From Streptomyces humicola (GTDB taxonomy: Bacteria > Actinomycetota > Actinomycetes > Streptomycetales > Streptomycetaceae): a stretch of DNA of 64,000 nt. The stretch is from assembly GCF_024436035.1 (NCBI RefSeq), contig NZ_JANFNG010000022.1, positions 1-64,000 on the forward strand, read 5' to 3'. Made by a program: the position numbers and the translations under genes. The notes under the pieces are model-generated. The model had not been told where the DNA came from and did not search any database. It saw nothing but the letters and a program-made list of their open reading frames with translations. Positions 46,130 to 64,000 of the stretch are shown here, in pieces (the stretch's first letter is position 1; each line of letters opens with the position of its first letter).

Positions 46130-48031
46130 TCACCAGAGGTAACTCGCGCCGTCCACCGGACCGGTGGGCACCGGCCGCAGGGCGCGGGCCACCGAGCGCA
46201 GGGTGCACGGGGATGAGAAGTGGTGTGAACGCAGGCCCACCAGGCCGCGGCGGCGCAGGGTCTCCACTACGGCGGGGGCGGCGAGGGCCAGGCCGCCGGC
46301 GGCGACGTAACTGAGTGCCATGTTCTCCACCGGGTGGCCGTGCGTCTCCCGGATCGCCTCGGACAGCTCCCGCTCCTCGGCGGTCGACGGGACCAGCACG
46401 GGACTGGCGTGCGCGGGCCGCCAGCCGTCCGCCGGGGCGTCGGCCGGCCACCATGTCGTATCGCCGCCGGCGTCGGTCGCGAGCAGCGGCAGGTAGCGGT
46501 GCGGGGCAACGACGTCCAGGTTGTGACCGAGGTGGGCCAGCACGTGCTCGTGCACGTCGAACAGCGAGGTACCCGGAGCCACCGCCAGTCGGGCCACCAC
46601 CTCCCGGTCGTCGGTGTCGACCCGCACCGCTCGGACCCCGGGGGCCGACCGCAGCACCCGTTCGACCGAGCCCGGGTGAACCCAGCTGCCGGCCACCGGC
46701 CGGCACCGCGTGGCGGCCGCGAACCCGTCCGGCAAGAGGACATCGGCCTCCCGGACCGGCGCCCGCGGTGTGTCCGCCATGAATTCCAGCAGGCGTGGCA
46801 GCACGTCGACGAAGGCGTGGACGGTCCGTTCCGGAAGCATCAGCGCGTCCACGTCGAAGTCGACCGTGACGCGGGTGCCTTGTACATAGACGTAGACCAC
46901 GCAGCACCACGGGCGACCGGTGCGGTCCCACTCATCGGTGCACCCGGTCAGCAGCGCCGGACCGGACGTGGCGGCGTCGCCGGGAGCGGCGGGCCTGGAC
47001 GGGCCCTGGAAGTTGAAGAAAACCGGGACCACCGAACCGACCCCGCGCGCGGCGGCGGCCCGCGAGCGGGACTCCGGCGGGGTGTGGCCATGGCGCAGAT
47101 CCTCCTCGTAGGAACGGAGCGTCGCCGCGCACATCGTGCCCAGCGCCGTGTCGAAGCCGGCGTCGTCGTCGATCTCCACCAGCATGTCGACGGGGCGCAT
47201 CTGGCATTCGATGCCGTGGTCCGGTTCGACCCGGTGGGCTACGTAGTTGGAGCAGAGCATCTCGCGCCGCCCGGAGTAGCGGGAGAGCAGCCACGCGATG
47301 GCGAACATGAAGACCATCGGGCGGGTCGCCGTGCTCGCGGCGCAGATCCGGTCCACCAGCGGCAGCAGCCCCTCGTACCGGGCAGAGGTGAACAGGTAGC
47401 GCGGCTCGGGAACGTCACCCGCGGCACGTGGCGCGGGCACCTGGGGGGCCCGGACAGACGGGTCGGTCCGGGCCCGGCCGGCAGCGGCGGCGGGCAGCGG
47501 CCGCACCGTGTCCGCGACTCGGTCCAGCGGCTGCCGGAGCGGCAGCGGCGCCGCGCGGCCGTGGCACAAGGCGAGAAACTGCTCCTGCCAGTTCCGCAGG
47601 CCGGCGCCGTCACTGATGATGTGGTCGAAGACCAGGCTGACGAAGCGGACCTCGCCCTGCTCGGCGAAGAACCGGACGGCCCACAGCGGCCGCGGCGAGT
47701 CGGCCCCCACGGACAGCGACGTCGACCGGCGCTGGTACTCCTCCAGCGTGGCCAGAGGAGCGACCGACACCGGAGGCCGGAAGGCCGCCGGGTCCAGGAC
47801 GGCCTGGCAGGGCAGGCCGTCCGGTCCGACGACGAAGAGCGTGCGCAGGATCTCGTGCCGGGCGATGAGTGCCGAGAACGCCGCGGTGGCCGTGTCGACG
47901 GCGATGCCGCGGGGTATCTCCCACAGTTTGCTCCACGAGGGGAACAGCTCGCCCTGACCGCGCCAGTAGGACCGCAGCCACATGCGCTGCTGCGCCGGGG
48001 TGAGCGGTCCGCTGCGGATGACACTCGACAT
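46130..48031 (-). CDS. Free-standing NRPS condensation protein with degenerate carrier
   Basis: 633 residues. Residues 1-430 form a condensation domain; the active-site motif is DHIISDG (136-142), keeping the catalytic second His but with Asp for the first. Residues 440-545 look like the small C-terminal subdomain of an adenylation domain (GSWVHPGSVERVLRSAPGVR, VVARLAVAPGTSLFDV). Residues 555-625 have the length and pattern of a peptidyl carrier protein (LSEAIRETHGHPVENMALSY, LRSHHFSSPCTLRSVARALR), but the GGxS motif reads GGLA (579-582), so no phosphopantetheine can attach. It probably condenses an amino acid held on the separate carrier (48050-48289) with another acyl unit. First gene of the cluster's left side. 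Confidence 0.85.
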   Translation of the reverse strand: MSSVIRSGPLTPAQQRMWLRSYWRGQGELFPSWSKLWEIPRGIAVDTATAAFSALIARHEILRTLFVVGPDGLPCQAVLDPAAFRPPVSVAPLATLEEYQRRSTSLSVGADSPRPLWAVRFFAEQGEVRFVSLVFDHIISDGAGLRNWQEQFLALCHGRAAPLPLRQPLDRVADTVRPLPAAAAGRARTDPSVRAPQVPAPRAAGDVPEPRYLFTSARYEGLLPLVDRICAASTATRPMVFMFAIAWLLSRYSGRREMLCSNYVAHRVEPDHGIECQMRPVDMLVEIDDDAGFDTALGTMCAATLRSYEEDLRHGHTPPESRSRAAAARGVGSVVPVFFNFQGPSRPAAPGDAATSGPALLTGCTDEWDRTGRPWCCVVYVYVQGTRVTVDFDVDALMLPERTVHAFVDVLPRLLEFMADTPRAPVREADVLLPDGFAAATRCRPVAGSWVHPGSVERVLRSAPGVRAVRVDTDDREVVARLAVAPGTSLFDVHEHVLAHLGHNLDVVAPHRYLPLLATDAGGDTTWWPADAPADGWRPAHASPVLVPSTAEERELSEAIRETHGHPVENMALSYVAAGGLALAAPAVVETLRRRGLVGLRSHHFSSPCTLRSVARALRPVPTGPVDGASYLW

Positions 48032-48049
48032 GGTTGGTCGCGCCGTCGG

Positions 48050-48289
48050 TCAGGAGGCCGCGGCGGCCAGCCGGGAGTCGAGCAGCCGGGCGAGTTTGCC
48101 GAACTCTTTCTCCACCACCACCTCTATCGCGTCCACCGAGACGCCGAACGTCTCCTGGATCCGCGCGGCCAGGTGGACGGCGGTGATGGAGGTACCGCCG
48201 CAGTCGAAGAAGTCCGTGTCGCCGGTCACCTCCTCGCAGTTGAGCAGATCGGCCCACAGCGCGGCCAGCTTCGTCTGTGCGTCGTGCAC
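48050..48289 (-). CDS. Free-standing carrier protein
   Basis: 79 residues. Phosphopantetheine site is Ser34 in FFDCGGTSITAVHLA. Composition and the D-x-FFDCGG pattern fit peptidyl carriers better than fatty-acid ACPs. Lies 19 bases from the condensation protein and 52 from the PGM1-like ligase, suggesting it carries the intermediate handled by these two. Confidence 0.92.
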   Translation of the reverse strand: MHDAQTKLAALWADLLNCEEVTGDTDFFDCGGTSITAVHLAARIQETFGVSVDAIEVVVEKEFGKLARLLDSRLAAAAS

Positions 48290-48340
48290 GGTTCGCCCTC
48301 CGGTTCGGTCATGCAGGAATGTGGTGCGATGAGCTGTTGC

Positions 48341-49714
48341 TCAGCCGGCCGCGGTGAACAGCGGGGCGAGCGCGCGGTCGCAGGCCCATGCCCGGTCCAG
48401 GTCCTCGGCGACCACGCAGTACATGACGCCGTTGGTGCCGTCGAAGGCGTTGGTCAGGACCACGCCGGTTCGGTTCTGCGGCGTGTACGCCAGGCCCGCT
48501 TCGGTCAGGCGGGCCAGCGTCGTGGCGAACGACGGGGTCGACCAGCCCTCCGGCCAGACCCGTTCGAGGATGATCCGGTCTTTGCCGTAGCCGGGACCGA
48601 CGACTGTCTCCCCGATCACCCCGTAGATATGGGTCGAGCCGGTGACCCGGCCGTTGAACTCGGTGAACAGCACCTCCCGTTCAGGGGTGACGATCGCGTC
48701 CGGGCAGACGACGCCGCGGTAGCCGATGGCGTACAGCCCGCGCGCCAGCCGTTCGGCGCCGTCGATGAGGGCGGCGTACACTTCGGGCTCCAGGCCGGGT
48801 GCGGGCATCACCTGGCCGACGGCATAGGGGGCGGACAGCAGTTCACCGGTGCCGGCGAGCCGCGGGCCGTCGTCGTCGACCAGATACTCGGCGAAGAAGG
48901 CCGAGCTGTCCGGCACATAGCGCTCGACCACCGGGCGGCCGCGGCCCTGGGCGGTCAGCCACTCCCAGCGGTCCTCCAGGTAGCCGCGTACGTCCGCGCG
49001 GCCGTGGACGGTCACCACACGGCGGGCGCCGATCGGCCGGACAGGCCGACCCGCGGCGAGGATCTCGTTGCCGTGGCCGCCAGAGAGGAAGTCGTGCTTG
49101 ACCACGACCGGTTCGCCGCCGGCGAGCAGGTCGAGGATGGCCTGCTCGGCGACCTCCCGGCCGGTGCAGACCTGACCGGGCGGCACGGCGGCACCCACCC
49201 CGCCGGCCACCGCCCGGAACATCGACTTGCTGTTGGTGAGCATCCCTCCCGCCTGGGCGACGAATCCGTGCCCCGGCATGGCGCGCTCGACGCCCAGCGA
49301 GCGCGCGAGCCGGGCCACCGCCGGGTCCGGCCACAGCGCCGACAGGTGCACGACCTCGCGGTCGCCGACCGCATCGGCGATGGCGGCCGCGCACTTGGGG
49401 TCCGCGAGCCGCTCCGGGGTCAGGGCGCCTTCGGTGCCGGGCGTCGCGGGCGGCGCCACGAAGGCGAGGGAGGCAGGATCGGTGCCGGTCAGCCCGGTCA
49501 CGTAGGCCACGAAGTCGGCCTGGGGCGCGGTCGGCAGCACCAGGACGTCGCCGTCCCGGGCGAACCACACCAGACGCTGCACCCACCACCCGGTCCATCC
49601 CCGGTCGTCTCGCACGTCCTCACTGAAGTCGTTGCCCACGAGGATCCGGGTGGTGGGGTGCGTCCCCCATCCGTTGTCCGGGACTTCGGCCCGGTCGCGC
49701 GTCAGGATCAACAC
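48341..49714 (-). CDS. PGM1-type ATP-grasp peptide ligase
   Basis: 457 residues. N-terminal pre-ATP-grasp Rossmann part (ILVGNDFSEDVRDDRGWTGW), central ATP-grasp fold (PVVVKHDFLSGGHGNEILA for ATP, VCPDAIVTPEREVLFTEFNG and RVTGSTHIYGVIGE for metal), then a C-terminal domain (TGVVLTNAFDGTNGVMYCVV) typical of PGM1, the pheganomycin peptide ligase. PGM1 joins an N-terminal non-proteinogenic amino acid, derived from dihydroxyphenylglycine, to peptides. With dpgA-C in the same cluster a similar substrate is likely. The stop lies 52 bases before the carrier gene and the start overlaps the NRPS stop by four codons' distance (49708-49714). Confidence 0.85.
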   Translation of the reverse strand: MLILTRDRAEVPDNGWGTHPTTRILVGNDFSEDVRDDRGWTGWWVQRLVWFARDGDVLVLPTAPQADFVAYVTGLTGTDPASLAFVAPPATPGTEGALTPERLADPKCAAAIADAVGDREVVHLSALWPDPAVARLARSLGVERAMPGHGFVAQAGGMLTNSKSMFRAVAGGVGAAVPPGQVCTGREVAEQAILDLLAGGEPVVVKHDFLSGGHGNEILAAGRPVRPIGARRVVTVHGRADVRGYLEDRWEWLTAQGRGRPVVERYVPDSSAFFAEYLVDDDGPRLAGTGELLSAPYAVGQVMPAPGLEPEVYAALIDGAERLARGLYAIGYRGVVCPDAIVTPEREVLFTEFNGRVTGSTHIYGVIGETVVGPGYGKDRIILERVWPEGWSTPSFATTLARLTEAGLAYTPQNRTGVVLTNAFDGTNGVMYCVVAEDLDRAWACDRALAPLFTAAG

Positions 49715-52212
49715 GACTGCTCCTGTTCGACGTGCTCACCGATGGCCCGGGTCACGGCGGCCACGGTCGGGCTCTTGAGGAAGTCGATCAGCGGGATGTC
49801 CACCCCGAACTCGTCGCGGACGGCCGACAGCATCTCCAGTACTCGGAGGGAATCGCCGCCGCTGACCATGAAACTGGCATTCACCCCGACGGCGGTGACG
49901 CCCAGGACCCGGCACCAGATGTCCGCCACCGACTGCTCGACGGGCGTCCGCGGGGCGTCGTCACCGCTGCGGGGCAGCTCTTCCGGCAGCGGGAGCGCGC
50001 ACCGGTCGAGCTTGCCGGTGGGACCGACCGGAAAGCCGTCCAGCACCGTGATCCGCCAGGGCACCGCGTAGTCGGGCAGGATCCCGGCCAGATAGCTGGT
50101 CAGCTGCTCGACGTCGGGCGGGAACGGGGTCGCGGCGGTGACATAGGCGAGCAGCCGGTCCCCGCCGGAGCGCTCGTCGCCGATGAGCGCCGCCTGGGCC
50201 ACGGTGGGGTGCGCGCGCAGCGCGGCCTCGATCTCGCCCGGTTCCAGCCGGTGGCCGCGGACCTTGAGCTGCCGGTCCTTGCGCCCCTGAAAGACCAGGG
50301 ATCCGTCGGGCCGGCGGCGCACCAGGTCGCCGGTGCGGTGAAAGCGGACACCGTCCGGGCCGGTGCCGAAGGCCCGCGCGGTCGCCTCGGGCTGCCGCCA
50401 GTAGCCGGCCGCCACGCGGTCGCTGACGATCTCGAGTTCGCCGTACACCTCGGTCGGGTGCCCGTCCGGGTCGAGCAGGCGGACCCGCACGCCGTTGGCC
50501 GGGTGACCGACCGGCAGCACTGCGCCGGTCAGGTCGGCACGGCCGGCCAGGTGTTGGAGCGCCACTGTGCACTCGGTGGGCCCGAGCCCGTTGACCAGTG
50601 CACTGTCCGGCGGGAACGCGGCCAGGAACCGCCGGAAATCCTGCCGGCCGGCCTCCTCACCGCCGAGCACCACCATGCGCACCGTGGCCAGTTGCGGTGT
50701 GGGAGGGCCCGACTCCGGCAGGTCGCCGACCAGGTGGCGGAAGAGCGTCGGAGTGCAGTGCACCACGGTGGTGCCGACCGCGGCAAGCCGTTCGCGCAGG
50801 GCCGGCGCGGGCAGCAGCGGGTCGACGACGTGCAGGCTCGCGCCGCTCAGCAGGGCACCGAACAGGTCCATGACTGCCGCGTCGAAGGTGAAGCGGGCCA
50901 GCAGTGGCAGCCGGTCCCCGGGGCCCAGGCGTATTCGATCGGCGTAGGCCAGCGCGTGCTCCAGGACATTGTGGTGCGTCTGCTCCACCGCCTTGGGCCG
51001 GCCCGTGGAGCCGGAGGTGAAGAGCAGGTACGCGGGGGAGCCGGCCGCGACCGGAGCCGGAGCCGGCGCGTCGGCGGTCGGGCCCACCGGGTACAGCGGA
51101 ACCACCTGTCGGCCCTTTGCCAGTACGCAGGCACGACCGGCCAGCGCCGGGCTGCAGGCGATGGCGGTCACATCAGCGCTCGCCAGGATCCGCGACAGCC
51201 GGCCATCCGGCATCCGCGGGTCCAACGGTACATAGGCAGCGCCGGACTTCAGGGCTGCCCACACCCCGAGGACGGCGTCCACGTCGTGCTCACAGAGCAG
51301 CGCGAGCCGGGTGCCCGGCCCGGCCGACCGCCGCAGCCGATGGGCCAGGACCGTGGTGACCCGGTCCAGCGCGGCGTAGCTGTAGTCGCCGCCAGCGCCG
51401 CTGAGCGCGGGGAGGTCCGCGTGCTCGGCGGCCACCGCGGACAACCGCTGCGGCAACGACTCCTGCGGCCCGGCGGGGGCGAGTGGCCGGTATCCCGGCG
51501 GGGTTGGCGGCGCCCACAGCGGCGGTGGTCCGGGCTCGTCGAGCAACCGGAGGTCACGTAGGGGAAGTTCGGGCCTGCGAGCGGCCTCGGTCAGCAGCGT
51601 CACCAGGTGGCGCAGCATCCAGGCGGCCGTCGCGCGGGCGAACAGGCTCGCGTTGAAGCCCAGGCACAGCACCGCGACCCCGTCCCGGCGTTCCAGGGAC
51701 AGATCCAGGTCCGGCTCGGCGTCCGGGTCCGGCCCCGCGCCGGGTGCCAGCAGGACCACGCGGACCAGCCCGAAGCCGGCCGGGACCAGGTCCGTCGCGG
51801 GAAGTTCGGCGGCATGCCGCAGGTCACGGCCGGCGGTCCGCGCCGTCCGTTCGACCTCCTCGGCGAAGGTTAAGTCGGGTTCGACATCCACCCGTACCGG
51901 GAGTGGCCCGGCGGTCGGGGCCGGGTCGCCTGGTGTCCGGTGGTCCAGGCCGATCACCGGATGGGCTACTGCGGTGTGCCGGTGCAGCACGACGGCGAAC
52001 GCGGTGAGCAGCGCGGCCGCCGTTCCGTCACCGCCCGAGGTGTCGTCCGGGCCGAGGAGTGCGGCCGCGCCACCGCCGAGCGAGACCTCCTCGACCGCCC
52101 GACGGTACTCGCGGGCAGTCAGCCGGGGCGTGTCCGTCGCCAGTTCGACCGGCGCCGCGCCGGCGAGGCGTTCCGGCCAGTAGCCGGTGTCCCGGCTGGG
52201 CGTGCTCCCCAT
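49708..52212 (-). CDS. NRPS: partial condensation lobe - adenylation - carrier
   Basis: 834 residues. Residues 1-225 look like only the second lobe of a condensation domain (VRVDVEPDLTFAEEVERTAR, WMLRHLVTLLTEAARRPELP); the HHxxxDG lobe is missing. The adenylation domain follows: LLFTSGSTGRPKAVEQTHHN, FTFDAAVMDLFGALLSGASL, NGLGPTECTVAL, GELEIVSDRVAAGYWRQP, TGDLVRRRPDGSLVFQGRKD, GPTGKLDR (Lys for the final contact). By eye the ten specificity positions read D-A-M-H-V-G-G-V-A-K, with Asp for the amino group; no known substrate was matched from memory. A carrier domain with GGDS ends the protein. One amino acid is therefore activated and loaded here. Confidence 0.9.
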   Translation of the reverse strand: MGSTPSRDTGYWPERLAGAAPVELATDTPRLTAREYRRAVEEVSLGGGAAALLGPDDTSGGDGTAAALLTAFAVVLHRHTAVAHPVIGLDHRTPGDPAPTAGPLPVRVDVEPDLTFAEEVERTARTAGRDLRHAAELPATDLVPAGFGLVRVVLLAPGAGPDPDAEPDLDLSLERRDGVAVLCLGFNASLFARATAAWMLRHLVTLLTEAARRPELPLRDLRLLDEPGPPPLWAPPTPPGYRPLAPAGPQESLPQRLSAVAAEHADLPALSGAGGDYSYAALDRVTTVLAHRLRRSAGPGTRLALLCEHDVDAVLGVWAALKSGAAYVPLDPRMPDGRLSRILASADVTAIACSPALAGRACVLAKGRQVVPLYPVGPTADAPAPAPVAAGSPAYLLFTSGSTGRPKAVEQTHHNVLEHALAYADRIRLGPGDRLPLLARFTFDAAVMDLFGALLSGASLHVVDPLLPAPALRERLAAVGTTVVHCTPTLFRHLVGDLPESGPPTPQLATVRMVVLGGEEAGRQDFRRFLAAFPPDSALVNGLGPTECTVALQHLAGRADLTGAVLPVGHPANGVRVRLLDPDGHPTEVYGELEIVSDRVAAGYWRQPEATARAFGTGPDGVRFHRTGDLVRRRPDGSLVFQGRKDRQLKVRGHRLEPGEIEAALRAHPTVAQAALIGDERSGGDRLLAYVTAATPFPPDVEQLTSYLAGILPDYAVPWRITVLDGFPVGPTGKLDRCALPLPEELPRSGDDAPRTPVEQSVADIWCRVLGVTAVGVNASFMVSGGDSLRVLEMLSAVRDEFGVDIPLIDFLKSPTVAAVTRAIGEHVEQEQSC

Positions 52213-52732
52213 GCTTCCCCCTGATCCTCGTGTCCGTCATCGCGGAGCCGGTGGACCGGTCAGCTTTGGCCGCAGTACGCGCCGCATTGGACCGCACAAC
52301 GTAAACCGTTTCAGGGGGTCCCCTCATGGTGCGTGTACCACGCATTCGACTTCACCCCGCCGAGCCCGGCCACTGTGACACGGGTCGATCAGAGCGTCAA
52401 GCAATACCGTCCGTCGCCGATGTCGACCGGTGCACCGCGGCACCAAGGAATTCGACCCGCCGGTCGGCCGTGTCCAAGTGCGTCTGGGAATCCTTGACAC
52501 CCCCTGCCTCGGACCATAGCCTGACTGGCGCTTGGGGATCGTGCTGTCGTGCCCAGGGGGATTCATCTGACGTCGGGCCACGTTGACCTGCGTTGCTTCG
52601 CTGGAATTCACAGGACCCATTGAATGCTCCGATTGTTTTTGTGCCCGCCGCTACTGCGGTGACGTGCCGTGCCGAATTACACCTCGCACGACTGGGTGTA
52701 CGTTCCCGTTCCCGGACATGAGGTGAACACCA
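52213..52732. promoter_or_regulatory. Divergent promoter region in the cluster
   Basis: 520 bases between the minus-strand NRPS operon and the plus-strand methyltransferase/LLM gene. No gene with coding bias. It should hold promoters for both directions; no clear operator repeat was seen. Confidence 0.45.
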
Positions 52733-54382
52733 GTGATTGACGACGCGTTCATGGAGACCGTGGCGACGCTGTCGGTCCCCGAGACGGGCACGGACTCCAC
52801 CGCCCCGCTGCTGTATCGGCTCATCCGATCGGTCCGCCCGCGGCGCGTCCTTGCAATCGGCATGGGCTACACCACCCCGTTTCTGGCCATGGCGCTGCAG
52901 GACAATGCCACGGCCGAACCGCAGCCGTCGTCCGAAACCGGCCACGACGACGTGCCCCACCGGCCACGGCTGGTGTGCGTCGACCGGACGTCCGACCCCG
53001 CCTCCTGCATGCCCCAGGCGCTGAAGGTGCTCGACCGGCTGGGCGTCCGGGACTTGTGCACGGTGATCGAGAGCGGCCCGCGCGGGGCGGCCCACACGGT
53101 CCGCGACGAGCTGGGACTGATCGACTTCGCCTGGATCGACACATGGGACACGCCCGCGTTCCTGCGCGAGTACGGGCCGCTGCTCAACCCGGCCGGCGGC
53201 ATCCTGGCCGGCCCGCACGGCGAACTGCTGGAGGTGACCAACCTGCGCGCACGGCACCGCACTGGCCGGCACGGCGCCACGCTGATCAGCCGCATCCGCG
53301 ACCACGCCGATCCGCAGGAGCTGCGGCCGCAGGCCGCCGGCGGCGACCCGACCGGGGTGGAGGTCCACTCGGTCACCCCGGAGTCGGTCAGCGAACACCA
53401 GCAGTTCCGAACCGGATTCCTCGAGCGGCTGACGCACGCCGCCCAGGCCTCGGAGGAGGCCGGCTGGTCCGGCATCCTGGTCCCGCACAACCTGCACGAG
53501 GTGGACCCCTGGATCGTGGCGACGTACCTGGGGGCCGTGACGACCTCGCTCGTGCCGCTGATCGCGGTGCAGCCGGCCTGCACGCCGCCGCATACCGCGG
53601 CCGCTTGCGCCGCGGCGTACGCGAGGCTCTACGGGAGGCCGTTGGACTTCAACCTGGTGGCCGGGGCCCGGGATGACGAGATGCGCCGGATCGGGGACAC
53701 CCTCAGCCATGACGAGCGCTACGACCGGATGCGCCAGTACGGGCGGATCCTGCGGGCGCTGCTGAACGGCGAGGAGGTCGACGAGTGCGGCTCCCACTAC
53801 ACCTACCGCGGTTTCCGGCTGGAGCCGCGACCGCAGGTGCTGGAGAAGTGCCGGATCTTCGTCGCCGGCTCGTCGCCCGCGAGCCTGGCGACCGCCCGGG
53901 AGATCGCCGACGTTGTCGTCACGCACCCCGCGCCGTTCGACGAGTGGCGTGAGTCGTTCCTGGAACCGCTGCTGGCCAGTGGCTACACCGGCCGGATCGG
54001 CATTCGCATCGGCCTGTTGTGCAGAGCGGACGGCGACGTGGCGTGGCGCACGGCCGAGGAACGCTTCCCCGAGTCGTGGGCCGGACGCCAGGAGACGCTA
54101 CTGAAGACGCGGTCGCAGAACGTCTGGTCCCGCCAACTGGCCCTGCGGGCAGTCGAGGAAGGCCCGCAGACGGCCGCCGCGGCGCGTGAGCCGTACTGGC
54201 TCGGGGCCTTCCGTAGCGGCCGGGCCAGCGCGCCGTTCCTGGTGGGCGCCTATGACGAGGTGGCCGAGCGGCTCGCCGAGTACGTCGGCGCCGGGGTCGG
54301 GCATGTGCTGCTCAACGGCGGGCTGGAAGAGGACTATCCGCACATCCGCCGGGCGGTCGAACGTGCCGCGGGTTCGATGTGA
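52733..54382 (+). CDS. Methyltransferase-like domain fused to LLM flavin monooxygenase
   Basis: 549 residues from a GTG at 52733. Residues 1-200 resemble a class I SAM methyltransferase (RRVLAIGMGYTTPFLAMALQ, RLVCVDRT, LGLIDFAWIDTWDTPAFLRE), though the glycine motif is atypical. Residues 220-549 are a luciferase-like (LLM) TIM barrel as in alkanesulfonate monooxygenases (EEAGWSGILVPHNLHEVDPW, PLDFNLVAGARDDEMRRIGD, YTYRGFRLEPRPQVLEKCRI, APFLVGAYDEVAERLAEYVG). LLM enzymes of natural-product clusters hydroxylate or N-oxidise carrier-bound or free intermediates with FMNH2. The fused first domain may bind the substrate instead of methylating. The stop overlaps the next ORF start. Confidence 0.85.
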   Translation: MIDDAFMETVATLSVPETGTDSTAPLLYRLIRSVRPRRVLAIGMGYTTPFLAMALQDNATAEPQPSSETGHDDVPHRPRLVCVDRTSDPASCMPQALKVLDRLGVRDLCTVIESGPRGAAHTVRDELGLIDFAWIDTWDTPAFLREYGPLLNPAGGILAGPHGELLEVTNLRARHRTGRHGATLISRIRDHADPQELRPQAAGGDPTGVEVHSVTPESVSEHQQFRTGFLERLTHAAQASEEAGWSGILVPHNLHEVDPWIVATYLGAVTTSLVPLIAVQPACTPPHTAAACAAAYARLYGRPLDFNLVAGARDDEMRRIGDTLSHDERYDRMRQYGRILRALLNGEEVDECGSHYTYRGFRLEPRPQVLEKCRIFVAGSSPASLATAREIADVVVTHPAPFDEWRESFLEPLLASGYTGRIGIRIGLLCRADGDVAWRTAEERFPESWAGRQETLLKTRSQNVWSRQLALRAVEEGPQTAAAAREPYWLGAFRSGRASAPFLVGAYDEVAERLAEYVGAGVGHVLLNGGLEEDYPHIRRAVERAAGSM

Positions 54383-55314: not shown

Positions 55315-55332
55315 CGTGCCCGGACCCGTCCG

Positions 55333-56556
55333 TCAGCGTGCCGGTTCCGCGACAAGCCGGTAACGTCTGATCACCTCGGCCGCCGCCGCCTCCACGCCGG
55401 CGCTGTCGGCGGCGCGCAGCAGGAAGCGGCCGCCGATGTGGTCGTAGCCCCCGTCCCCGGTGAAGACCCGGCCCACCTCGGGAAGGATCTCCCCGTAGAC
55501 CTCCGGGACCAGGTCGAGCAGCGGTGTGCGCGAGACCACCCGGGAGGGCAGCGGGCGGGGTTCCGGAACGGCCACCCAGCCGCCACCCCTGGGCTGGGGC
55601 AGTCGGGCGGGGTCGGTCGCCGGGGGCAGCCCGAGGGTGACGCGGAAGGCCTCGGCGAACAGGTCGATGCCGAACAGGTCACGGTGGATCGTCGGGATGT
55701 CGGCACCGCCGGGGCGGATACCCACCTCCAGGAAGACCAGTTCGCCGCTGTCCGCCTCGATCAGTTCCAGGTGGAATGGACCGTCGTCGAGCCCGAGCGC
55801 GTCCAGGCACCCGGCGGTGAAGGCCACGGCGCGGTCGGCGCGCGGGCCCGGGTCGATGACGGCGGAGCCCATCGGCAGGCCGTGGGCGAAGTCCAGGCAG
55901 GTGTTGAGGTAGGCGGACGCGCTGACGAAGTGGAAGCCGCCGCCGCGGCGGATGCCGTCGATATGCAGCACCGTGCCGGACACGTACTCCTCGCACTGGT
56001 GGTCGGCCCGGTCCACGTCCTTCAACGCGGTGCGCAGTTCCTCCAGGTCCTCGATGACGACGACGCCGCGGGAGGCCGCCTCCGCCCTGGGTTTGAGGAC
56101 CAGGGGGAGCCCGACGGCCTCGGCCACGGATTCGGCGCTGCTGCCTTCGTCCAGTGCCACGAAGGCGGGCACCCGCAGCCCCGCCGCGGCGACCGCCTGC
56201 TTCATCGTCGGCTTGTCCTTGAACCGGCGGACGAAGTCCTCACGCCAGCCGGGGACTTCGAGGTCCGCGCGCAGCCGGGCGGTGGCGATCACGTCGCGCT
56301 CGGAGATGCCGACCACGCCGTCGAACGGCCCGTGCTTGGCCATCAACGCCTCCGCCTTGGCCAGCAGCGTGTCGTGGCCGAGGCTGTCGACGACGACGGT
56401 GTCGAGCGCGGCCGAGCGGTCGATGACCGGCAGCCCGGCAGGCAGCGTCACAAAGGCCAGCCTGCAGTCGATACCGGCGGCGAACCTCTGGTAGTGACCG
56501 CATTCATCGTCGAAACGGTTGATCACCAGATACTGGGGAATGCGGTGGTCAGACAC
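55333..56556 (-). CDS. ATP-grasp ligase
   Basis: 407 residues. Pre-ATP-grasp domain (YLVINRFDDECGHYQRFAAG, FDGVVGISERDVIATARLRA), ATP-grasp core (FKDKPTMKQAVAAAGLRVPA, GLPLVLKPRAEAASRGVVVI, CEEYVSGTVLHIDGIRRGGG, LELIEADSGELVFLEVGIRP) and a C-terminal cap. It forms an amide by activating a carboxylate with ATP, as in dapdiamide or rhizocticin ligases. Partner residues unknown. It overlaps the small ATP-grasp-like gene by eight bases, pointing to a joint role, and converges on the KAS III-like gene. Confidence 0.88.
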   Translation of the reverse strand: MSDHRIPQYLVINRFDDECGHYQRFAAGIDCRLAFVTLPAGLPVIDRSAALDTVVVDSLGHDTLLAKAEALMAKHGPFDGVVGISERDVIATARLRADLEVPGWREDFVRRFKDKPTMKQAVAAAGLRVPAFVALDEGSSAESVAEAVGLPLVLKPRAEAASRGVVVIEDLEELRTALKDVDRADHQCEEYVSGTVLHIDGIRRGGGFHFVSASAYLNTCLDFAHGLPMGSAVIDPGPRADRAVAFTAGCLDALGLDDGPFHLELIEADSGELVFLEVGIRPGGADIPTIHRDLFGIDLFAEAFRVTLGLPPATDPARLPQPRGGGWVAVPEPRPLPSRVVSRTPLLDLVPEVYGEILPEVGRVFTGDGGYDHIGGRFLLRAADSAGVEAAAAEVIRRYRLVAEPAR

Positions 56557-56920
56557 AGCGCACCATGTCCTCGATGCGGGCCCGGCGCTCCAGGGCCTCG
56601 GGGTAGGCGTCGGCGACGAACAGCGCGCAGCCGAGCCGGCAGCGGAAGTCTCCGTACGGCTGCAGCGTGTCGCCCGGTCCGGCGGTCATGCTCACCTCCT
56701 GGACGAAGTCGGCCTCTCGCAGGCGTTCCAGGACGTCGACGGCGGTCAGCACCCGGTCCGGCAGGACGCGCTCCTCGCGGTTGTAGAAGGCGACCACGGT
56801 TTCCAGCCCGAGGTCGTGTGCCGCGTACATCAGGTCGAACGCCGAGGTCGTCGGTTCGACAATGAGCACTCGCTTGCGGTCGTGCGAAGATGTGTCAGGC
56901 ATCCCGTCAGCCCCCGTCAC
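56549..56920 (-). CDS. Short ATP-grasp-like protein lacking the core
   Basis: 123 residues (or 117 from the ATG at 56902). The start KRVLIVEPTTSAFDLMYAAH has the Rossmann pattern of pre-ATP-grasp domains, and the end FVADAYPEALERRARIEDMV resembles the extreme C-terminus of such ligases, but the ATP-binding middle is absent. Could be a deletion product, or a small subunit or substrate-binding helper of the ligase whose gene it overlaps. Confidence 0.55.
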   Translation of the reverse strand: MTGADGMPDTSSHDRKRVLIVEPTTSAFDLMYAAHDLGLETVVAFYNREERVLPDRVLTAVDVLERLREADFVQEVSMTAGPGDTLQPYGDFRCRLGCALFVADAYPEALERRARIEDMVRCV

Positions 56921-56953
56921 TCTGTCGAGATCACTGCCGTGGCCGATCCGGCG

Positions 56954-58033
56954 CTACTTCGTCCCGGTGCTGAGCCCGTGTTCGTACGAGAGTCCGGCGG
57001 TCGTCCGCACGTCGTTGAAGCCGGCCCGGCGCAGCCACTCCTCGTAGTCGCGGGCCGGGTACGCCATTCCGCGGCCACTGGCCAGCACGTTGAAGTACAG
57101 GCCGAGGCGGGCGCCGAAGATGCCGTCGGTCTCGTCGTCGGAGACGTTGTAGCCGTAGGCGAGGACCCGTCCGCCCGCGGGCAGGGCGTCATACGCCTTG
57201 CCCAGCAGGTGCATGATCTCCTTCTCGGAGAAGATCTCCAGCACATGGCTGAAGAGCACGGCGTCGGTGCCGCCGGGGAAGTCGTCCTGGAACATGTCGC
57301 CGGGGTGCAGATCGACCCGGTCGGGGAAGCTCGTCGCTGCCCGGTCGAGTCGGGAGACGCTCGGCATGTCGAACACGGTGCACTTCAGGCCGGGGTAGCG
57401 CGCGGCGAGCCGGGCCGACGTGGTGCCGTCGCCGCCGCCCACGTCCAGCAGGTGCCGCACCGAGGCGAACTCCGGTTGACAGACCAGCGAGTCGACCGAG
57501 CGCAGCGTGAAGGCGCTCATCGCCCGGTGGAAGACCGCTTCCAGCTGCGGGTTGTGCGCCAGCCGCTGATAGAGCGTGGGCTCGTCGCCGGGGTGGTCGG
57601 CGAGGGCGGTGTTGGTGCCGCCGCGCAGGGCCGTGGTCATCTGGCCGAAGGCCGGGTAGTAGATCTCTTTCCAGCCGATCAGTATGTGCGCCCAGCTGTC
57701 CTCCGCGTCCGAGGCCAGCAGGTCGCTCGCGACCGGGGAGTTGACGTACCCGCCGTCCTCGCGGCGCACCAGCCCGGTGGTGCAGACCGCCTGCAGCAGG
57801 ACGCGCAGCTGGTGGGCCGGGACGCCGGTCGCCGAGCCGATCCGCTCCGCGTCGCAGCCTGGCTGCTCGGCGAGGAGGCGGAAGATGCCGAGTTCGACCG
57901 CCGTGGTTACCGCGTTGAACAGGGCTGGTGCGTTTACCAGGAAATGAAACCGGTCCAGAACGGGATCGTCGTCCCCGTGCGGATTGGTCACGTTTGTCCT
58001 TAATCGAACGTTGGGCTTGATGACGGTCTCCAT
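56954..58033 (-). CDS. O-methyltransferase (plant-type/Methyltransf_2 family)
   Basis: 359 residues (a GTG at 57991 with AGGA upstream may be the true start, giving 345). N-terminal winged-helix dimerisation part (ALFNAVTTAVELGIFRLLAE, VPAHQLRVLLQAVCTTGLVR), then the SAM domain: HLLDVGGGDGTTSARLAARY (motif I), VDLHPGDMFQDDFPGGTDAV, FSHVLEIFSEKEIMHLLGKA. These enzymes methylate phenolic hydroxyls of aromatic polyketides. A dihydroxyphenyl group made by dpgA-C is the obvious candidate. Head-to-head with dpgA, sharing a promoter region. Confidence 0.88.
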   Translation of the reverse strand: METVIKPNVRLRTNVTNPHGDDDPVLDRFHFLVNAPALFNAVTTAVELGIFRLLAEQPGCDAERIGSATGVPAHQLRVLLQAVCTTGLVRREDGGYVNSPVASDLLASDAEDSWAHILIGWKEIYYPAFGQMTTALRGGTNTALADHPGDEPTLYQRLAHNPQLEAVFHRAMSAFTLRSVDSLVCQPEFASVRHLLDVGGGDGTTSARLAARYPGLKCTVFDMPSVSRLDRAATSFPDRVDLHPGDMFQDDFPGGTDAVLFSHVLEIFSEKEIMHLLGKAYDALPAGGRVLAYGYNVSDDETDGIFGARLGLYFNVLASGRGMAYPARDYEEWLRRAGFNDVRTTAGLSYEHGLSTGTK

Positions 58034-58302
58034 GCCGCCATGCCGCGAAGGTCATGCCATAACGAAAAGGACTCCGTTCGTGATCTTAAGAAAATGGCGT
58101 GCCGGGCGTCAACGGCGCCCCTCTGTGACGCAGGTCACGATGGGCCACTCGTTGCGACGGTCAAATCCGTGTGCTTGCATGAATGAGCGGTTGTGATGCC
58201 CGATCCGGAATTGATTATTTCCTGGCTGCCGGCGGCCGGCGCGGGCATCGTTTCGGGGAATACGATGGGCTCCTTGACACGGAGTTTTGCGGGGGACGAG
58301 AC

Positions 58303-59430
58303 GTGGCACAGATGGTTCACTCGCGGCGCACGGCACCAGTGGGAATCGGTGAAGAGACCGGGGAGTTATTCCCCAGAATCATGGGTGTCGGCACGGCCTG
58401 GCCGGATACCTCCTACACCCAGCAGGAAATGCTGGACACTTTTGGCATCACCGACCCGCGGGTGAGATCGGTATTTCTGAACAGCGCCATCGAACGGCGC
58501 GGACTCACCCTGCCCCCGCTGGCCGCGGACGGCTCGCCGGTTGTCGAGACCCAGGGGGAATTGCTGCGGAAGCATGTGCGCAGCGGTCTGGCCATGGGGC
58601 GCGAGGCCGTCACCAGATGCCTCGCGGACGCCGGAGCCGAGGTGGCGGACATCCGCTACCTGTGCTGTGTCACTTCGACCGGGTTCGCGACGCCCGGCTT
58701 CTCAGCCCTGCTGCTGAAATCCCTGGGCATCGAACCGTACTGCGCGCGGCTGGACGTGGTCGGCATGGGCTGCAACGCCGGGCTCAACGCCCTGACAGCC
58801 GTGGCCGGCTGGGCCGGCGCGCACCCCGGCGATCTCGCGCTGATGGTCTGCATCGAGGCGTGCTCCGCCGCCTATGTCTTCGATGGAACCATGCGCTCTT
58901 CCGTCGTCAACAGCCTCTTCGGTGACGGGTCTGCGGCCGTCGCCGTGCGCGCGGCCCCGGCACCCGCCGACCCCGAGAGCGATCCGGCCGGTGCGGCGAT
59001 CCTGCGCTTCTCCAGCCGCATCATCCCGGACGCCATCGACGCCATGCGCTACGACTGGGATGACGACCACGGCAAGTTCAGCTTCTCTCTGGACCCGCAG
59101 GTGCCCTACGTCGTCGGGGCGCACGCCGAACTCTCCCTCTCCAGGCTCCTGGACGGCACCGGTCTGCAGCCCTCCGACATCGCCCACTGGATCGTGCACT
59201 CCGGGGGGAAGAAGGTCATCGACTCGGTTCGGGTGAACCTCGGACTGACCCGTCACGACGTGCGGCACACCATCGGGGTGCTGCGCGACCACGGCAACGT
59301 CTCCAGCGGGTCATTCCTGTTCTCCTACCGTCGGCTGCTCGACGAGGGATGCATCGAACCGGGCGACTACGGCGTCCTGATGACCATGGGACCGGGATCA
59401 ACCATCGAGATGGCCTTGGTGGGATGGTGA
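58303..59430 (+). CDS. dpgA: 3,5-Dihydroxyphenylacetyl-CoA synthase, type III PKS
   Basis: 375 residues from the GTG at 58303, placed behind GGGGGA; the frame is open further upstream but without similarity. Condenses four malonyl-CoA into 3,5-dihydroxyphenylacetyl-CoA. Catalytic triad Cys157 (GMGCNAGLNAL), His299 (WIVHSGG) and Asn332 (DHGNVSSGS) of chalcone-synthase-like enzymes. DpgA-type sequence throughout (RSVFLNSAIERRGLTLPP, DAMRYDWDDDHGKFSFSLDP, GDYGVLMTMGPGSTIEMAL). Starts an operon dpgA-dpgB-dpgC-aminotransferase-P450 with start/stop overlaps at each junction. Confidence 0.95.
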   Translation: MAQMVHSRRTAPVGIGEETGELFPRIMGVGTAWPDTSYTQQEMLDTFGITDPRVRSVFLNSAIERRGLTLPPLAADGSPVVETQGELLRKHVRSGLAMGREAVTRCLADAGAEVADIRYLCCVTSTGFATPGFSALLLKSLGIEPYCARLDVVGMGCNAGLNALTAVAGWAGAHPGDLALMVCIEACSAAYVFDGTMRSSVVNSLFGDGSAAVAVRAAPAPADPESDPAGAAILRFSSRIIPDAIDAMRYDWDDDHGKFSFSLDPQVPYVVGAHAELSLSRLLDGTGLQPSDIAHWIVHSGGKKVIDSVRVNLGLTRHDVRHTIGVLRDHGNVSSGSFLFSYRRLLDEGCIEPGDYGVLMTMGPGSTIEMALVGW

Positions 59431-60182
59431 CGGAAGGAATCGCCGCCGCGATGGCAACGGAACTGGAACTCAGCGAACTGCCCGACGGACTCGGCCTGAT
59501 GGTGCGGTTCGACGGGCAGCGGTCCGTCGCGGAGCTGACATCGGCCGTCAACACGGTCTGCGCGCGGGCGGAGAGCGGTGACGAGCAGACCGTCGTGGTG
59601 CTCTGCTTCGACGCGATGTCGGCGGACTGCCGCCAGTGGCCCGGAGAGGTGGACGTCCAGCAGGTCAACCGGTGGGAGCGCGCGGTGCGCCGGCTGGAGC
59701 GGCTGCCGGCGGTCAGCATCGCCATGCTTCAGGGCACGTGCGGCGGGCCGGCCCTGGACCTGCTGCTCGCAGCCGACTTCCGCATCGGCACCTCCGACCT
59801 GCGGCTGCTGCTGCCGGTCAACGACGAGCACTTCTGGCCCGGCATGTCCGTCTACCGGCTGGTGCGGCATCTCGGCGTGGCCCGCGCCCGGCAGATCGTC
59901 CTGTGGGGCACCGACATCCCGCTGGACAAGGCGCTGGACCTGGGCCTCATCGACCACGTCGACGACGACGTAGCCGAGGCGGTGCGCACCGCCACCGTGC
60001 TCACGGGCCGGCTGTCGGGCCGGGAGATGGCCGTGCGCCGCCAACTGCTGCTGGAGGCTGCGTCGGCCGAGTACGACGACGCGGTGGGCACGCATCTGGC
60101 CGCCTGCGACCGTGAGTTGCGGCGACTGCGCGGCTCCGCGGGCCAGCTGCCGCTGGCTGCCACGGAAAGGTCCGGGTCGTGA
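59427..60182 (+). CDS. dpgB: DpgB-like enoyl-CoA hydratase family protein
   Basis: 251 residues from the GTG overlapping the dpgA stop (GTGA). Crotonase fold: SIAMLQGTCGGPALDLLLAA (oxyanion hole), FRIGTSDLRLLLPVNDEHFW, RARQIVLWGTDIPLDKALDL. In glycopeptide pathways DpgB helps DpgA release and aromatise dihydroxyphenylacetyl-CoA. No dpgD copy is seen in the window, so this one may serve both roles, or dpgD lies beyond 64 kb. Confidence 0.9.
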   Translation: MTEGIAAAMATELELSELPDGLGLMVRFDGQRSVAELTSAVNTVCARAESGDEQTVVVLCFDAMSADCRQWPGEVDVQQVNRWERAVRRLERLPAVSIAMLQGTCGGPALDLLLAADFRIGTSDLRLLLPVNDEHFWPGMSVYRLVRHLGVARARQIVLWGTDIPLDKALDLGLIDHVDDDVAEAVRTATVLTGRLSGREMAVRRQLLLEAASAEYDDAVGTHLAACDRELRRLRGSAGQLPLAATERSGS

Positions 60183-61522
60183 GCGACAGGTTCGAGGCGT
60201 TCGGGGCGCGGGCGCCCGAGTTCGACGGAGACCTGGACGGCGACCGCGCGGCACTGGCGCGGTACGCGGCCGCCGGCGAGGAACTGCTGGCGGCCCTGCC
60301 GTCCCGGCCCGGGCGCGATGCAACTCAGCGGCGCTCGGCCGAGGCGGTCCTCGCGGCCTGCCGGGCCTGCAGGCGCGACTTCCTGGGGCGGCATACCGAA
60401 GCCGTCTACGACCTGCTCACCGACGGCCGCACCCGCCAGGTCCGGCTCCCGGAGCTGGTGTACACGGCGGCCGACCGGTTCCCGGGGCTCGTGCCGACCC
60501 GCGCGCAGATGGCCGAAGAACTCGCCCGTATCCAGGCGGACAAGGACGGCAGGGAGATCGACCAGGGTGTCTTCGCTGGCGCCGTGCTGCGCTCGCCGGT
60601 GGCGGGCCGGCACCTGGTCGAGACGATGCTCACCCCCACGGAGTGCGCCCTCGACCTGCTGGAGACCTTCCGGCGCACGGGCCGGGTGGAGCTGGGGACC
60701 GTCGAGGTCGAGCGCATCGGACATGGCGCGTACCTGACGTTCCGCAACACCGGATGCCTCAACGCCGAGGACAACCGGCTGATCCGCGACCTGGAGACCG
60801 CGGTCGACCTCGCGCTGCTGGACGACGAGGTCCGGGTCGGTGTGCTGCGCGGCGGAGAGGTGGACCATCCGCGCTACCACGGCAGACGGGTCTTCAGCGC
60901 CGGCATCAACCTCAAGGACCTGCGGAACGGGGCGATCTCCCTCATCGACTTCCTGCTGGGCCGCGAACTCGGCTACATCCACAAGATGCTGCGCGGTCTG
61001 CTGGTGGACCCGGCCCCGGGCGCTTGGTCGGACCGCACGGTCAGCAAGCCGTGGGTAGCCGCGGTCGACTCCTTCGCCATCGGCGGCGGGATGCAGCTCC
61101 TGCTGGTGATGGACCGGGTCATCGCCGAGACGGACGCCTATTTCAGCCTGCCGGCCGCGGAGGAGGGCATCGTGCCGGGCCTGGGCAATCTGCGGCTGAC
61201 CCGGCTGACCGGAGCCCGGCCGGCCCGCCGGATCATCCTCGGCGGCGCACGGATCGCGGCCGGCGACCCACAGGCGGACCTGCTGTGCGACGAGGTCGTG
61301 TCCGCCGGGGAGATGGCCGGCGCAGTCGAGCGCGCGGTGCGCGAACTCGGCGTTCCGGCCGTCGCGACCAACCGCCGGATGCTCAACCTCGCCGAGGAGC
61401 CGGTGGATCTCTTCCGCGAGTATCTGGCCGAGTTCGCGGTCGCCCAGGTGGCCCGGGCGTACAGCGACGATGTCCTGGCCAAGGTCGAGCGGCGCTGGCA
61501 GCGGTCACAGGCTCGCGGATGA
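60179..61522 (+). CDS. dpgC: 3,5-Dihydroxyphenylacetyl-CoA 1,2-dioxygenase
   Basis: 447 residues, starting with GTG inside the dpgB stop. Cofactor-free oxygenase of the crotonase superfamily: converts dihydroxyphenylacetyl-CoA and O2 to 3,5-dihydroxyphenylglyoxylate. Helical N-terminal domain, then the DpgC landmarks NTGCLNAEDNRLIRDLETAV, HPRYHGRRVFSAGINLKDL, LGYIHKMLRGLLVDP, VDSFAIGGGMQLLLVMDRVI, AEEGIVPGLGNLRLTRLTGA. Full length. Confidence 0.95.
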   Translation: MSDRFEAFGARAPEFDGDLDGDRAALARYAAAGEELLAALPSRPGRDATQRRSAEAVLAACRACRRDFLGRHTEAVYDLLTDGRTRQVRLPELVYTAADRFPGLVPTRAQMAEELARIQADKDGREIDQGVFAGAVLRSPVAGRHLVETMLTPTECALDLLETFRRTGRVELGTVEVERIGHGAYLTFRNTGCLNAEDNRLIRDLETAVDLALLDDEVRVGVLRGGEVDHPRYHGRRVFSAGINLKDLRNGAISLIDFLLGRELGYIHKMLRGLLVDPAPGAWSDRTVSKPWVAAVDSFAIGGGMQLLLVMDRVIAETDAYFSLPAAEEGIVPGLGNLRLTRLTGARPARRIILGGARIAAGDPQADLLCDEVVSAGEMAGAVERAVRELGVPAVATNRRMLNLAEEPVDLFREYLAEFAVAQVARAYSDDVLAKVERRWQRSQARG

Positions 61523-62820
61523 CGGAGGACACGGCCTTGTTCGACGCCGCCGACCTGCACGGCTCACTGCGCGACCCACTCCTCGGATCGCTGGGCTTCC
61601 TCAACGAGGTGATGGGCCGTTACCCGGAGGCCATCTCCTTCGCGCCCGGGGCACCGCATCCGGACACCCTGGAGAGCGTCGATCTCACCGCCTGCGTCGA
61701 CCGGTTCGTCGACCACGAGGTGGCCCTCGGCGCCACCCCCGGCCAGGCACGGCGAAGGGTGTACGAGTACGGGCCGAGCCGCGGTCTCATCAACGGGCTC
61801 GTCAGCGAGGCGCTGCGCCGGGACCACGGGATCGAAGCCGGCCCGGAGAGCCTGGTCATCACGGCCGGGGCGCAGGAGGGGATGCTGCTGGTGCTGCGCG
61901 CGCTGTTCGCGTCGCCCCGCGATGTGCTGGCGGTCGCCAATCCCTGCTTCGTGGGCATCACCGGGTCAGCCCGTCTGCTCGACCTGGACCTGGTGAGCAT
62001 CGACGAGAGCCCGGACGGGATCGACCTCGACGGCCTGGCCGCCGCCTGCCGCGCGTGCCGGGCGGCAGGCCGGTCGGTGCGTGCGCTGTACGTGGCCCCG
62101 GACTTCTCCAACCCGGGTGGCACGACGATGTCGCCGGCCTGCCGCCGACAGCTACTCGACCTCGCTGGCCAGGAGGACTTCCTGGTCATCGAGGACAACA
62201 CCTACGGATTCACCGCGGCCACCGACCAGGCGCTGCCGCCGCTGAAGGCGCTGGACACCGACCGGCGCGTGGTGCACATCGGCACATTCGCCAAGATCGC
62301 CTTCCCCGGCGCGCGGGTCGGCTACGTGGTCGCCGACCAGCCGGTCGCCGGAGAGGTCGGCACGCATCCACTCGCCGACGACCTGGCCACGCTCAAGACC
62401 GTGGTCACGGTGAACACCTCACCGCTGTGCCAGGCGGTCATCGGCGGCCTGCTTCTGCAACATGGCGGCTCTCTTGTTGCGTTGGGCCGGCGCAAATCGG
62501 CGCTCTACCGGCGTAATCTGACACACCTGACGGATGCCCTCGACCACCACCTGGGCGAGCTGCCGCCCGCGGGCATCACATGGAACCGGCCGCGAGGCGG
62601 GTTCTTCGTCCGCATGCGGCTGCCGGTCCCGGCGGACGCCGCGCTGCTGGAGGTCTCGGCGCAGAAGTACGGGGTCCTGTGGACGCCGATGGCGCAGTTC
62701 TACCTGGACAGCTCGGGCGAACGGCAGCTGCGGCTGTCGTGCAGCTACCTCGACCCCGACCAGATCGACGAAGGGGTGCGGCGGCTGACCGCATTCGTGA
62801 AGGGAGAGGTCGGCTCATGA
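61519..62820 (+). CDS. PLP aminotransferase for the dihydroxyphenylglycine pathway
   Basis: 433 residues, overlapping dpgC as ATGA. Fold type I aminotransferase of the MocR/aspartate-like class I/II: substrate-arm YEYGPSRGLINGLVSEALRR, VITAGAQEGMLLVLRALFAS, APDFSNPGGTTMSPACRRQL, and the PLP lysine Lys259 in IGTFAKIAFPGARVGYVV. It should transaminate 3,5-dihydroxyphenylglyoxylate to 3,5-dihydroxyphenylglycine, the HpgT role in vancomycin-type clusters. Confidence 0.92.
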   Translation: MTEDTALFDAADLHGSLRDPLLGSLGFLNEVMGRYPEAISFAPGAPHPDTLESVDLTACVDRFVDHEVALGATPGQARRRVYEYGPSRGLINGLVSEALRRDHGIEAGPESLVITAGAQEGMLLVLRALFASPRDVLAVANPCFVGITGSARLLDLDLVSIDESPDGIDLDGLAAACRACRAAGRSVRALYVAPDFSNPGGTTMSPACRRQLLDLAGQEDFLVIEDNTYGFTAATDQALPPLKALDTDRRVVHIGTFAKIAFPGARVGYVVADQPVAGEVGTHPLADDLATLKTVVTVNTSPLCQAVIGGLLLQHGGSLVALGRRKSALYRRNLTHLTDALDHHLGELPPAGITWNRPRGGFFVRMRLPVPADAALLEVSAQKYGVLWTPMAQFYLDSSGERQLRLSCSYLDPDQIDEGVRRLTAFVKGEVGS

Positions 62821-64000
62821 CCGGCATCGACGGGCACCCCACTGCGCGCCGCGCCCCGTTCGACCCGCCACCGGAACTGACCGCCTGCCTCGAAGACGAA
62901 CCGATCCGCCGGATGCGCTACCCGGACGGCCACGTGGGCTGGCTGGTCACCAGTCACGAGCTGGCCCGCAGCGTGCTCGCCGACCGGCGCTTCAGCGCTC
63001 GCTCGGAGTTCAAGCGCCCGCCCGTCGCCCGGCCCAGCATCGAGCCCTTCTATGGCGCACCAGCCCTGCCCGGCTGGATGGTCGACATGGACGCCCCCGA
63101 GCACACGCGGCTGCGCCGGCTGCTGACGGGCAGGTTCACCCTGCGCCGGATGCGGGAGCTGCGCCCGCGGATCGAGGCCGTCGTCGAGGACCTGCTGGAC
63201 GCCATGGAACGCCGCGCAGGCCCCGCCGACCTGGTGGAGTGCTTCTCACTGCCGGTCCCGTCGGTGATGATCTGCGAGCTGCTCGGGGTCCCCTACGCGG
63301 AACGCGCCGCCTTCCAGCACTACACGGAGGTGCTCTTCAGCCTCTCCTCCGGCGCCGAGGACGCGGCCGGGGCGATGGACGAGCTGTACGTGCTGCTGCG
63401 GCGCCTGGCGAAGGGCGACGCGGCCGCCACCGCGGACGGTCTGCTCGCCGCGCTCGCCGCGGACGGGACGGACCCGGAGGAGATCGCCGGCATCGGCACC
63501 CTGCTGCTGACCGCCGGGCACGAGACGACGTCGAGCATGCTGAGCCTGTCCGTCTTCGCGCTGCTGACCCATCCCGAGCAGCTGGCCCGGCTCGTCGCCA
63601 ACCCGGGTGAGGTCGACAACGCTGTCGAGGAGCTGCTGCGCTACCTGACCGTCTTCCACTTCGGTGTGCCGCGCACCCCACTGGAGGACGTGGAGTTGGC
63701 GGGCCGGCTGCTGAAGGCTGGCGAGTCGGTCACCGTGTCACTGCCCGCCGCCAACCGTGATCCGCGGGTGTTCGACGACCCCGGCCGTCTGGATCTCGGC
63801 CGCAGAACCTCCTCTCATCTGGCCTTCGGATACGGCGTTCACCAGTGTCTGGGACAGAACCTGGCCCGGGTGGAGATGGGCGTCGCCCTGCCCGCACTCT
63901 TACGCCGCTTCCCGGCCCTGTCCCTCGCCGTCCCGGCCGAGCAGGTGCCCCTCGCCCTGGACATGGGCGTCTACGGCGTTCACCGGCTCCCGGTCATGTG
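62817..64000 (+). CDS. Cytochrome P450 (runs off the window)
   Basis: 394 codons visible, starting with an ATG that overlaps the aminotransferase stop by four bases; only a few C-terminal residues should be missing. I-helix LTAGHETTSSM, K-helix EELLR, and the heme loop FGYGVHQCLGQNLAR with Cys344. The CYP105-like pattern fits hydroxylation or oxidative modification of the growing product. It needs a ferredoxin; none is in the cluster part seen. Confidence 0.9.
   Translation, partial: MTGIDGHPTARRAPFDPPPELTACLEDEPIRRMRYPDGHVGWLVTSHELARSVLADRRFSARSEFKRPPVARPSIEPFYGAPALPGWMVDMDAPEHTRLRRLLTGRFTLRRMRELRPRIEAVVEDLLDAMERRAGPADLVECFSLPVPSVMICELLGVPYAERAAFQHYTEVLFSLSSGAEDAAGAMDELYVLLRRLAKGDAAATADGLLAALAADGTDPEEIAGIGTLLLTAGHETTSSMLSLSVFALLTHPEQLARLVANPGEVDNAVEELLRYLTVFHFGVPRTPLEDVELAGRLLKAGESVTVSLPAANRDPRVFDDPGRLDLGRRTSSHLAFGYGVHQCLGQNLARVEMGVALPALLRRFPALSLAVPAEQVPLALDMGVYGVHRLPVM

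Follow-up and report, generated by a model that had tools for sequence, protein, structure and literature searches.

The stretch of DNA analysed here (the window) covers positions 1 to 64,000 of a 101,942-base contig of Streptomyces humicola, and its last 18 kb bring together genes for 3,5-dihydroxyphenylglycine (Dpg), parts of nonribosomal peptide synthetases (NRPSs) and ATP-grasp ligases. The question raised by this locus is whether these parts belong together, and how they relate to the Dpg/PGM1 pathway of pheganomycin. The 46-64 kb stretch was re-annotated using codon-position GC and profile scans, and every gene listed for it in the original prediction was found (Table 1), including the three dpg genes with their aminotransferase, the lone carrier, the PGM1-like ligase and the KAS III-like protein. 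The genes named show the codon-position GC of coding sequence, with a GC3 of about 0.8-0.92. The aminotransferase is real, but the open reading frame first listed for it (61470-62516) was ruled out as a gene by codon-position GC. Furthermore, the predicted 18-kb set is present but is not the whole cluster, which runs on beyond the window to a right limit near 84.5 kb of the contig; at the left edge, GC climbs from about 66% to about 72%. The region from 46 to about 84.5 kb is a real, uncharacterised antibiotic-type cluster; it is related to the pheganomycin pathway but hybrid in make-up, a free-standing peptide ligase being placed next to NRPS enzymes.

Table 1. Features of the cluster, in window coordinates up to 64,000 and in contig coordinates where marked.
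Feature	Position	Strand	Basis
Stand-alone condensation (C) protein, 633 aa	46130..48031	-	PF00668 1e-15
Stand-alone PCP	48050..48289	-	PF00550 1e-13
PGM1-like ATP-grasp peptide ligase	48341..49714	-	PF18604/PF18105; PDB 3wvq E 2e-136
A-PCP NRPS, preceded by the C-terminal half of a C domain	49708..52212	-	profile scans
Degraded MT24 copy, in frame ahead of LLM	52733..53359	+	alignment to intact MT24
LLM, FMNH2-dependent luciferase-like monooxygenase	53360..54382	+	PF00296
KAS III-like protein	54379..55314	+	KAS III fold; profile and structure search
Second ATP-grasp protein, L-amino-acid-ligase-like	55333..56556	-	PF13535
ATP-grasp ligase relic	56549..56902	-	PF18603; two-part match to MAP5-34 ligase
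O-methyltransferase (OMT), Methyltransf_2 with dimerisation domain	56954..58033	-	profile match
dpgA, type III PKS	58381..59430	+	NF042429 627 bits, cut-off 425
dpgB	59424..60182	+	NF042431 235 bits, cut-off 140
dpgC, dioxygenase	60179..61522	+	NF042432 587 bits, cut-off 530
Aminotransferase class I/II (putative Dpg-forming role)	61519..62820	+	PF00155 1e-24
Cytochrome P450	62817..64000 (end at contig 64004, just outside the window)	+	PF00067 7e-36
Probable StrR-like regulator (ParB/HTH)	contig 64117-65127		by eye
MT24, class I methyltransferase, intact copy	contig 65222-65968		
DAO, ThiO-like FAD amino-acid oxidase	contig 66114-67544		
Two ABC exporters	contig 67750-71159		
NRPS C-A-PCP-TE	contig 71214-75161		
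NRPS PCP-C-A-PCP-C-A-PCP	contig 75228-81959		
MbtH	contig 81991-82218		
Second KAS III-like gene	contig 82215-83135		
EctB-like diaminobutyrate transaminase	contig 83162-84520		

The flank to the left of the cluster is rich in transposases and introns. A group II intron with its own maturase is found at 3749-5318 and, at 29901-32116, a cobalamin riboswitch lies ahead of a metE gene that has a recombinase zinc-ribbon piece in place of its C-terminal half; NicO and CobW genes adjoin this region. Within the cluster, a 36-bp near-perfect palindrome (GGTGTCCAACTG..CAGTTGGACACC, contig 64018-64053, perfect over 64021-64050) sits between the P450 gene and the probable StrR-like regulator. The search for StrR/Bbr-type operator patterns gave this one palindrome and no second good copy, therefore no regulon is claimed.

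All three Dpg proteins score above the curated cut-offs of their equivalog-level NCBIfam profiles. The dpgA-C genes are adjacent and the aminotransferase lies within the same operon; dpgD was looked for in the cluster and not found. Formation of Dpg is assigned because the function of the DpgA-C families is established. The P450 shows 63-64% identity to P450s in pheganomycin-type clusters.

A ligase was counted as PGM1-type when it showed the Pre-ATP-grasp, ATP-grasp and PGM1_C domains and matched PGM1 over its full length. The PGM1-like ligase of the window shows all of them, with a whole-length match to the crystallised PGM1 (PDB 3wvq) at 52% identity and a conserved ngr-tgsthiy motif region. 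The second ATP-grasp ligase is present as predicted, as a PF13535 protein only about 32% identical to the ligases beside orthologous Kitasatospora clusters, but a ligase relic beside it had been missed. This relic lies just upstream, overlaps the gene by a few bases, and consists of residues 1-47 fused to 342-405 of a ligase of this kind, the ATP-grasp core being deleted.

Several of the remaining proteins are linked to carriers. The stand-alone PCP has the intact serine of its GGTS motif. The predicted lone condensation protein does contain a C domain, with FDHIISDG in place of HHxxxDG and the second His retained; however, an alignment of three orthologues shows that it continues into an AMP-binding_C-like piece and ends in a carrier-like helical domain whose serine is replaced. 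Its low-confidence structure model (mean pLDDT 61, pTM 0.47) matches C domains and was used for domain assignment alone. The A-PCP NRPS has the A and PCP domains expected of it, but these are preceded by half a C domain. Its pocket, DAMHVGGVA, is essentially invariant among orthologues, as DAMHVGG(V/L/M)(A/V); the automatic read-out of A at position 278 in MAP5-34 was due to a misplaced anchor, the sequence there being VLHCTPT. Since H278 and G301 also occur in the Hpg and Dpg codes, Dpg is a plausible substrate of this domain by analogy. Downstream of the window, the large NRPSs contain C, A and PCP domains with intact motifs, starting with a PCP at the N-terminus and finishing with a TE, with MbtH alongside, and thus form an NRPS assembly line. 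Judged by published codes, their pockets are DVQFAAHLV, presumably proline-like, DMTKLGVVN, presumably Asx-like, and DIWQLTADD, which has no assignment but may suit a basic residue, for example diaminobutyrate.

The model of the KAS III-like protein (pLDDT 83) shows the KAS III fold, and its top neighbour by TM-score is the acyltransferase ChlB3. Across five orthologues, Cys117, the nucleophile, is invariant and HCF(S/A)AD is found at the Asn loop; the Cys-His-Asn triad of FabH was tested in the same five and is absent, the FabH His position being Phe or Pro. Together, these features point to a probable acyltransferase rather than a ketosynthase. The predicted LLM fusion (52733-54382) contains an intact LLM, alkanesulfonate-monooxygenase-like (E 2e-29 to SsuD structures) and 64-73% identical to stand-alone LLM genes of relatives, but the part fused to it is a truncated, degraded MT24 copy. 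This copy corresponds to the first 209 residues of the fusion, is 50% identical to the intact MT24, lacks about 35 residues and has the glycine loop LEVGMGY changed to LAIGMGY. MT24 and LLM are separate adjoining genes in K. humi, Kitasatospora sp. MAP5-34 and the genome G160, therefore the fusion is most simply read as a duplication remnant. A sequence search found no solved-structure relative of MT24. The OMT is 64-73% identical across five relatives.

To place the cluster, 395 genomes of the family were sampled. Six of them encode a PGM1-like ligase sharing 66-76% identity with that of the window, and five of these six contain the full core of A-PCP, PGM1-like ligase, LLM, MT24, KAS III-like protein, OMT and ABC pair: K. 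humi, MAP5-34, Streptomyces sp. CBMA123 (cluster spread over two contigs), S. caeruleatus and G160. Core genes are 49-77% identical among clusters and their order varies; since the core is common to five other genomes, the parts belong together and their neighbourhood is not due to chance. Most of the five also contain the Dpg genes, the P450, the PCP and the C protein, the C proteins of S. caeruleatus being different, and clear orthologues of the large NRPSs, MbtH and the EctB-like gene are not found in all relatives. From K. humi, dpgB, dpgC and the aminotransferase have been lost, and dpgA survives there as a 36-residue relic beside an intact amidinotransferase; despite this, K. humi retains the A-PCP protein, the PGM1-like ligase and the tailoring genes, so that either another source supplies Dpg or the A-PCP protein uses a different substrate. 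The sixth relative (G241) lacks the full core; alongside the Dpg genes, P450, OMT and ABC pair it has the beginning of an A-PCP gene. A scan for the LLM in about 85,000 species gave only four loci, although diverged copies can escape such a scan, which depends on exact matches of short peptide words.

Other PGM1-like loci of the sample differ in their company. In G241, one locus (L045:13601-18770) has a PGM1-like ligase, Dpg genes and an amidinotransferase whose immediate neighbours are a PLP decarboxylase and a pair of siderophore synthetases (IucA/IucC), which suggests an arylglycine-siderophore hybrid. Another, L048:5921-9609 (G085), shows a PGM1-like ligase and Dpg genes beside an MFS exporter and a protein resembling lantibiotic dehydratases. 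Three loci (L049, L050 and L051) represent a further cluster type with carbamoyltransferase, DAO, formyltransferase, WelO5-like, FemAB-like and KAS III-like proteins and NRPS; their A-PCP proteins have the adenylation core deleted and the carrier intact.

Compared with pheganomycin of Streptomyces cirratus, the cluster shares the PGM1-type ligase, Dpg genes, aminotransferase, a related P450 and ABC exporters. In contrast, it lacks the amidinotransferase and the B12 radical-SAM methylase, no precursor-peptide gene was recognised in it (short open reading frames in three gaps, inspected by eye, show no repeated core-like ends), and it adds the A-PCP, PCP and C proteins, two large NRPSs, LLM, MT24, OMT, KAS III-like proteins and the second ligase. 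While the ligase of the window is only 52% identical to PGM1, two other Streptomyces loci, one on a plasmid of S. globosus, have ligases at 77-78% beside Dpg genes, amidinotransferase, P450 and B12 radical-SAM, and look like true pheganomycin-type clusters. Since the guanidinylating enzyme is missing, the cluster of the window is not a member of that type; the best-supported reading is a variant of pheganomycin-like Dpg/PGM1 pathways outside the type proper. In resorcinomycin, a Dpg-derived guanidino acid is likewise joined by an ATP-grasp ligase, and to our knowledge the product is a dipeptide made without NRPS modules. The Dpg pathways of glycopeptides and feglymycin share dpgA-C with the aminotransferase, MbtH and NRPS; the cluster of the window has far fewer modules, and we know of no PGM1-type ligase or LLM in those pathways. 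A literature search gave no match to a cluster of Dpg genes, ATP-grasp ligase and NRPS, nor to the A-domain pockets. The gene set, unrecognised in the original prediction, is thus related to and distinct from pheganomycin, but it is not unique, having orthologous clusters in five genomes; with close relatives in a few strains of Streptomyces and Kitasatospora, it is not a new type of system.

No amidinotransferase was found in the contig, in the whole genome or in S. caeruleatus, in searches that recovered the positive controls of MAP5-34 and K. humi. The other four of the five core relatives have a pheganomycin-type amidinotransferase, an enzyme left aside in the original prediction, and no DAO; the amidinotransferase, of 380 residues (E 1e-45 against solved inosamine-phosphate and glycine amidinotransferases), is as expected for a guanidino-arylglycine. 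DAO is found in both core clusters without amidinotransferase (86% identical to each other) and in none of the four with it. The concatenated core tree is deeply split into two groups, one made up of the cluster of the window and both Kitasatospora clusters, the other of S. caeruleatus, CBMA123 and G160 (support 1.0). With the DAO-bearing clusters on opposite sides of this split, amidinotransferase seems to have been exchanged for a shared DAO in two lineages, which with six clusters is a pattern and not a proof. DAO homologues 37-57% identical occur elsewhere in the family, one more of them in this genome. A general pairing of PGM1-like ligases with an amidinotransferase was ruled out: one lies within about 11 kb at 30 of the 47 PGM1-like loci of the family sample and is missing there in 17 (hand count).

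From these data we infer, at roughly even confidence, that 46130 to about 84520 directs a short peptide containing Dpg or a derivative, in a pathway that brings together tailoring on a carrier, assembly by an NRPS line and bond formation by ATP-grasp ligation. DpgA-C and the aminotransferase would make Dpg, which the A-PCP protein may load, as such or modified, onto its carrier, where OMT, MT24, LLM and P450 would act on it as tailoring enzymes. Units bound to carriers would then be handed on or coupled by the KAS III-like acyltransferases together with the stand-alone C protein, moving through the lone PCP toward the NRPS line, which would start with an empty PCP, add three residues, the first pocket being proline-like, and release by TE. 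At least one remaining amide bond would be formed on free acids by the PGM1-like ligase, modelled on the role of PGM1 in pheganomycin, and perhaps by the second ATP-grasp ligase. Against this Dpg pathway we count the loss of Dpg genes in K. humi, the absence from some relatives of clear orthologues for the large NRPSs, for MbtH and for the EctB-like gene, and the relics, which show that the cluster has been eroding. Decay to the point where the product is no longer made is nevertheless highly improbable: the deleted ligase, the degraded methyltransferase and the left flank with its transposases and introns would fit it, but an intact MT24 exists, and the genes of the main enzymes are strongly codon-biased and encode complete proteins uninterrupted by stop codons.

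The locus could also hold two neighbouring pathways, with the Dpg/PGM1 genes at 46-67 kb forming one sub-cluster and the NRPS at about 71-84.5 kb being unrelated to it. In favour of this, neither K. humi nor MAP5-34 shows an evident orthologue of the large NRPSs next to its core, but we consider it quite improbable: a second KAS III-like gene, of a family otherwise tied to these clusters, lies directly behind MbtH, and in CBMA123 a PCP-first NRPS with a similar pocket ending in ADD adjoins the lone PCP. Somewhat unlikely, but less so, is a strict pheganomycin logic with the NRPS replacing the ribosome, where a free tetrapeptide-like chain would be N-capped by the PGM1-like ligase with a free, amine-blocked Dpg derivative and the A-PCP/KAS III/C set would make a separate building block. 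PGM1 works on a capped arylglycine, whose acid group it activates for joining to the amine of a peptide, and both the frequency of amidinotransferases near PGM1-like ligases and the DAO in the two clusters without one agree with such a cap; yet most NRPS parts would be dispensable, when those parts are the conserved core, and oxidation of Dpg to the keto acid would reverse the aminotransferase step. A further and in our view unlikely reading is that a PGM1-type ligase was re-purposed to finish an NRPS-made peptide, that DAO replaced the guanidinylating enzyme in two lineages, the arylglycine cap being blocked or activated by oxidation, and that a KAS III-fold protein shuttles an aminoacyl unit between carriers.

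If the combined pathway is correct, these clusters would represent a pathway family where ATP-grasp ligation, which needs no template, and assembly by an NRPS converge on a single arylglycine unit, together with a natural swap of the N-capping enzyme and candidate aminoacyl-shuttling enzymes of the KAS III fold. The cluster of the window is an orphan whose relatives make for an instructive comparison, and together they would offer a small set of candidate producers, several of them culture-collection or sequenced strains, of an arylglycine peptide that is probably undescribed.
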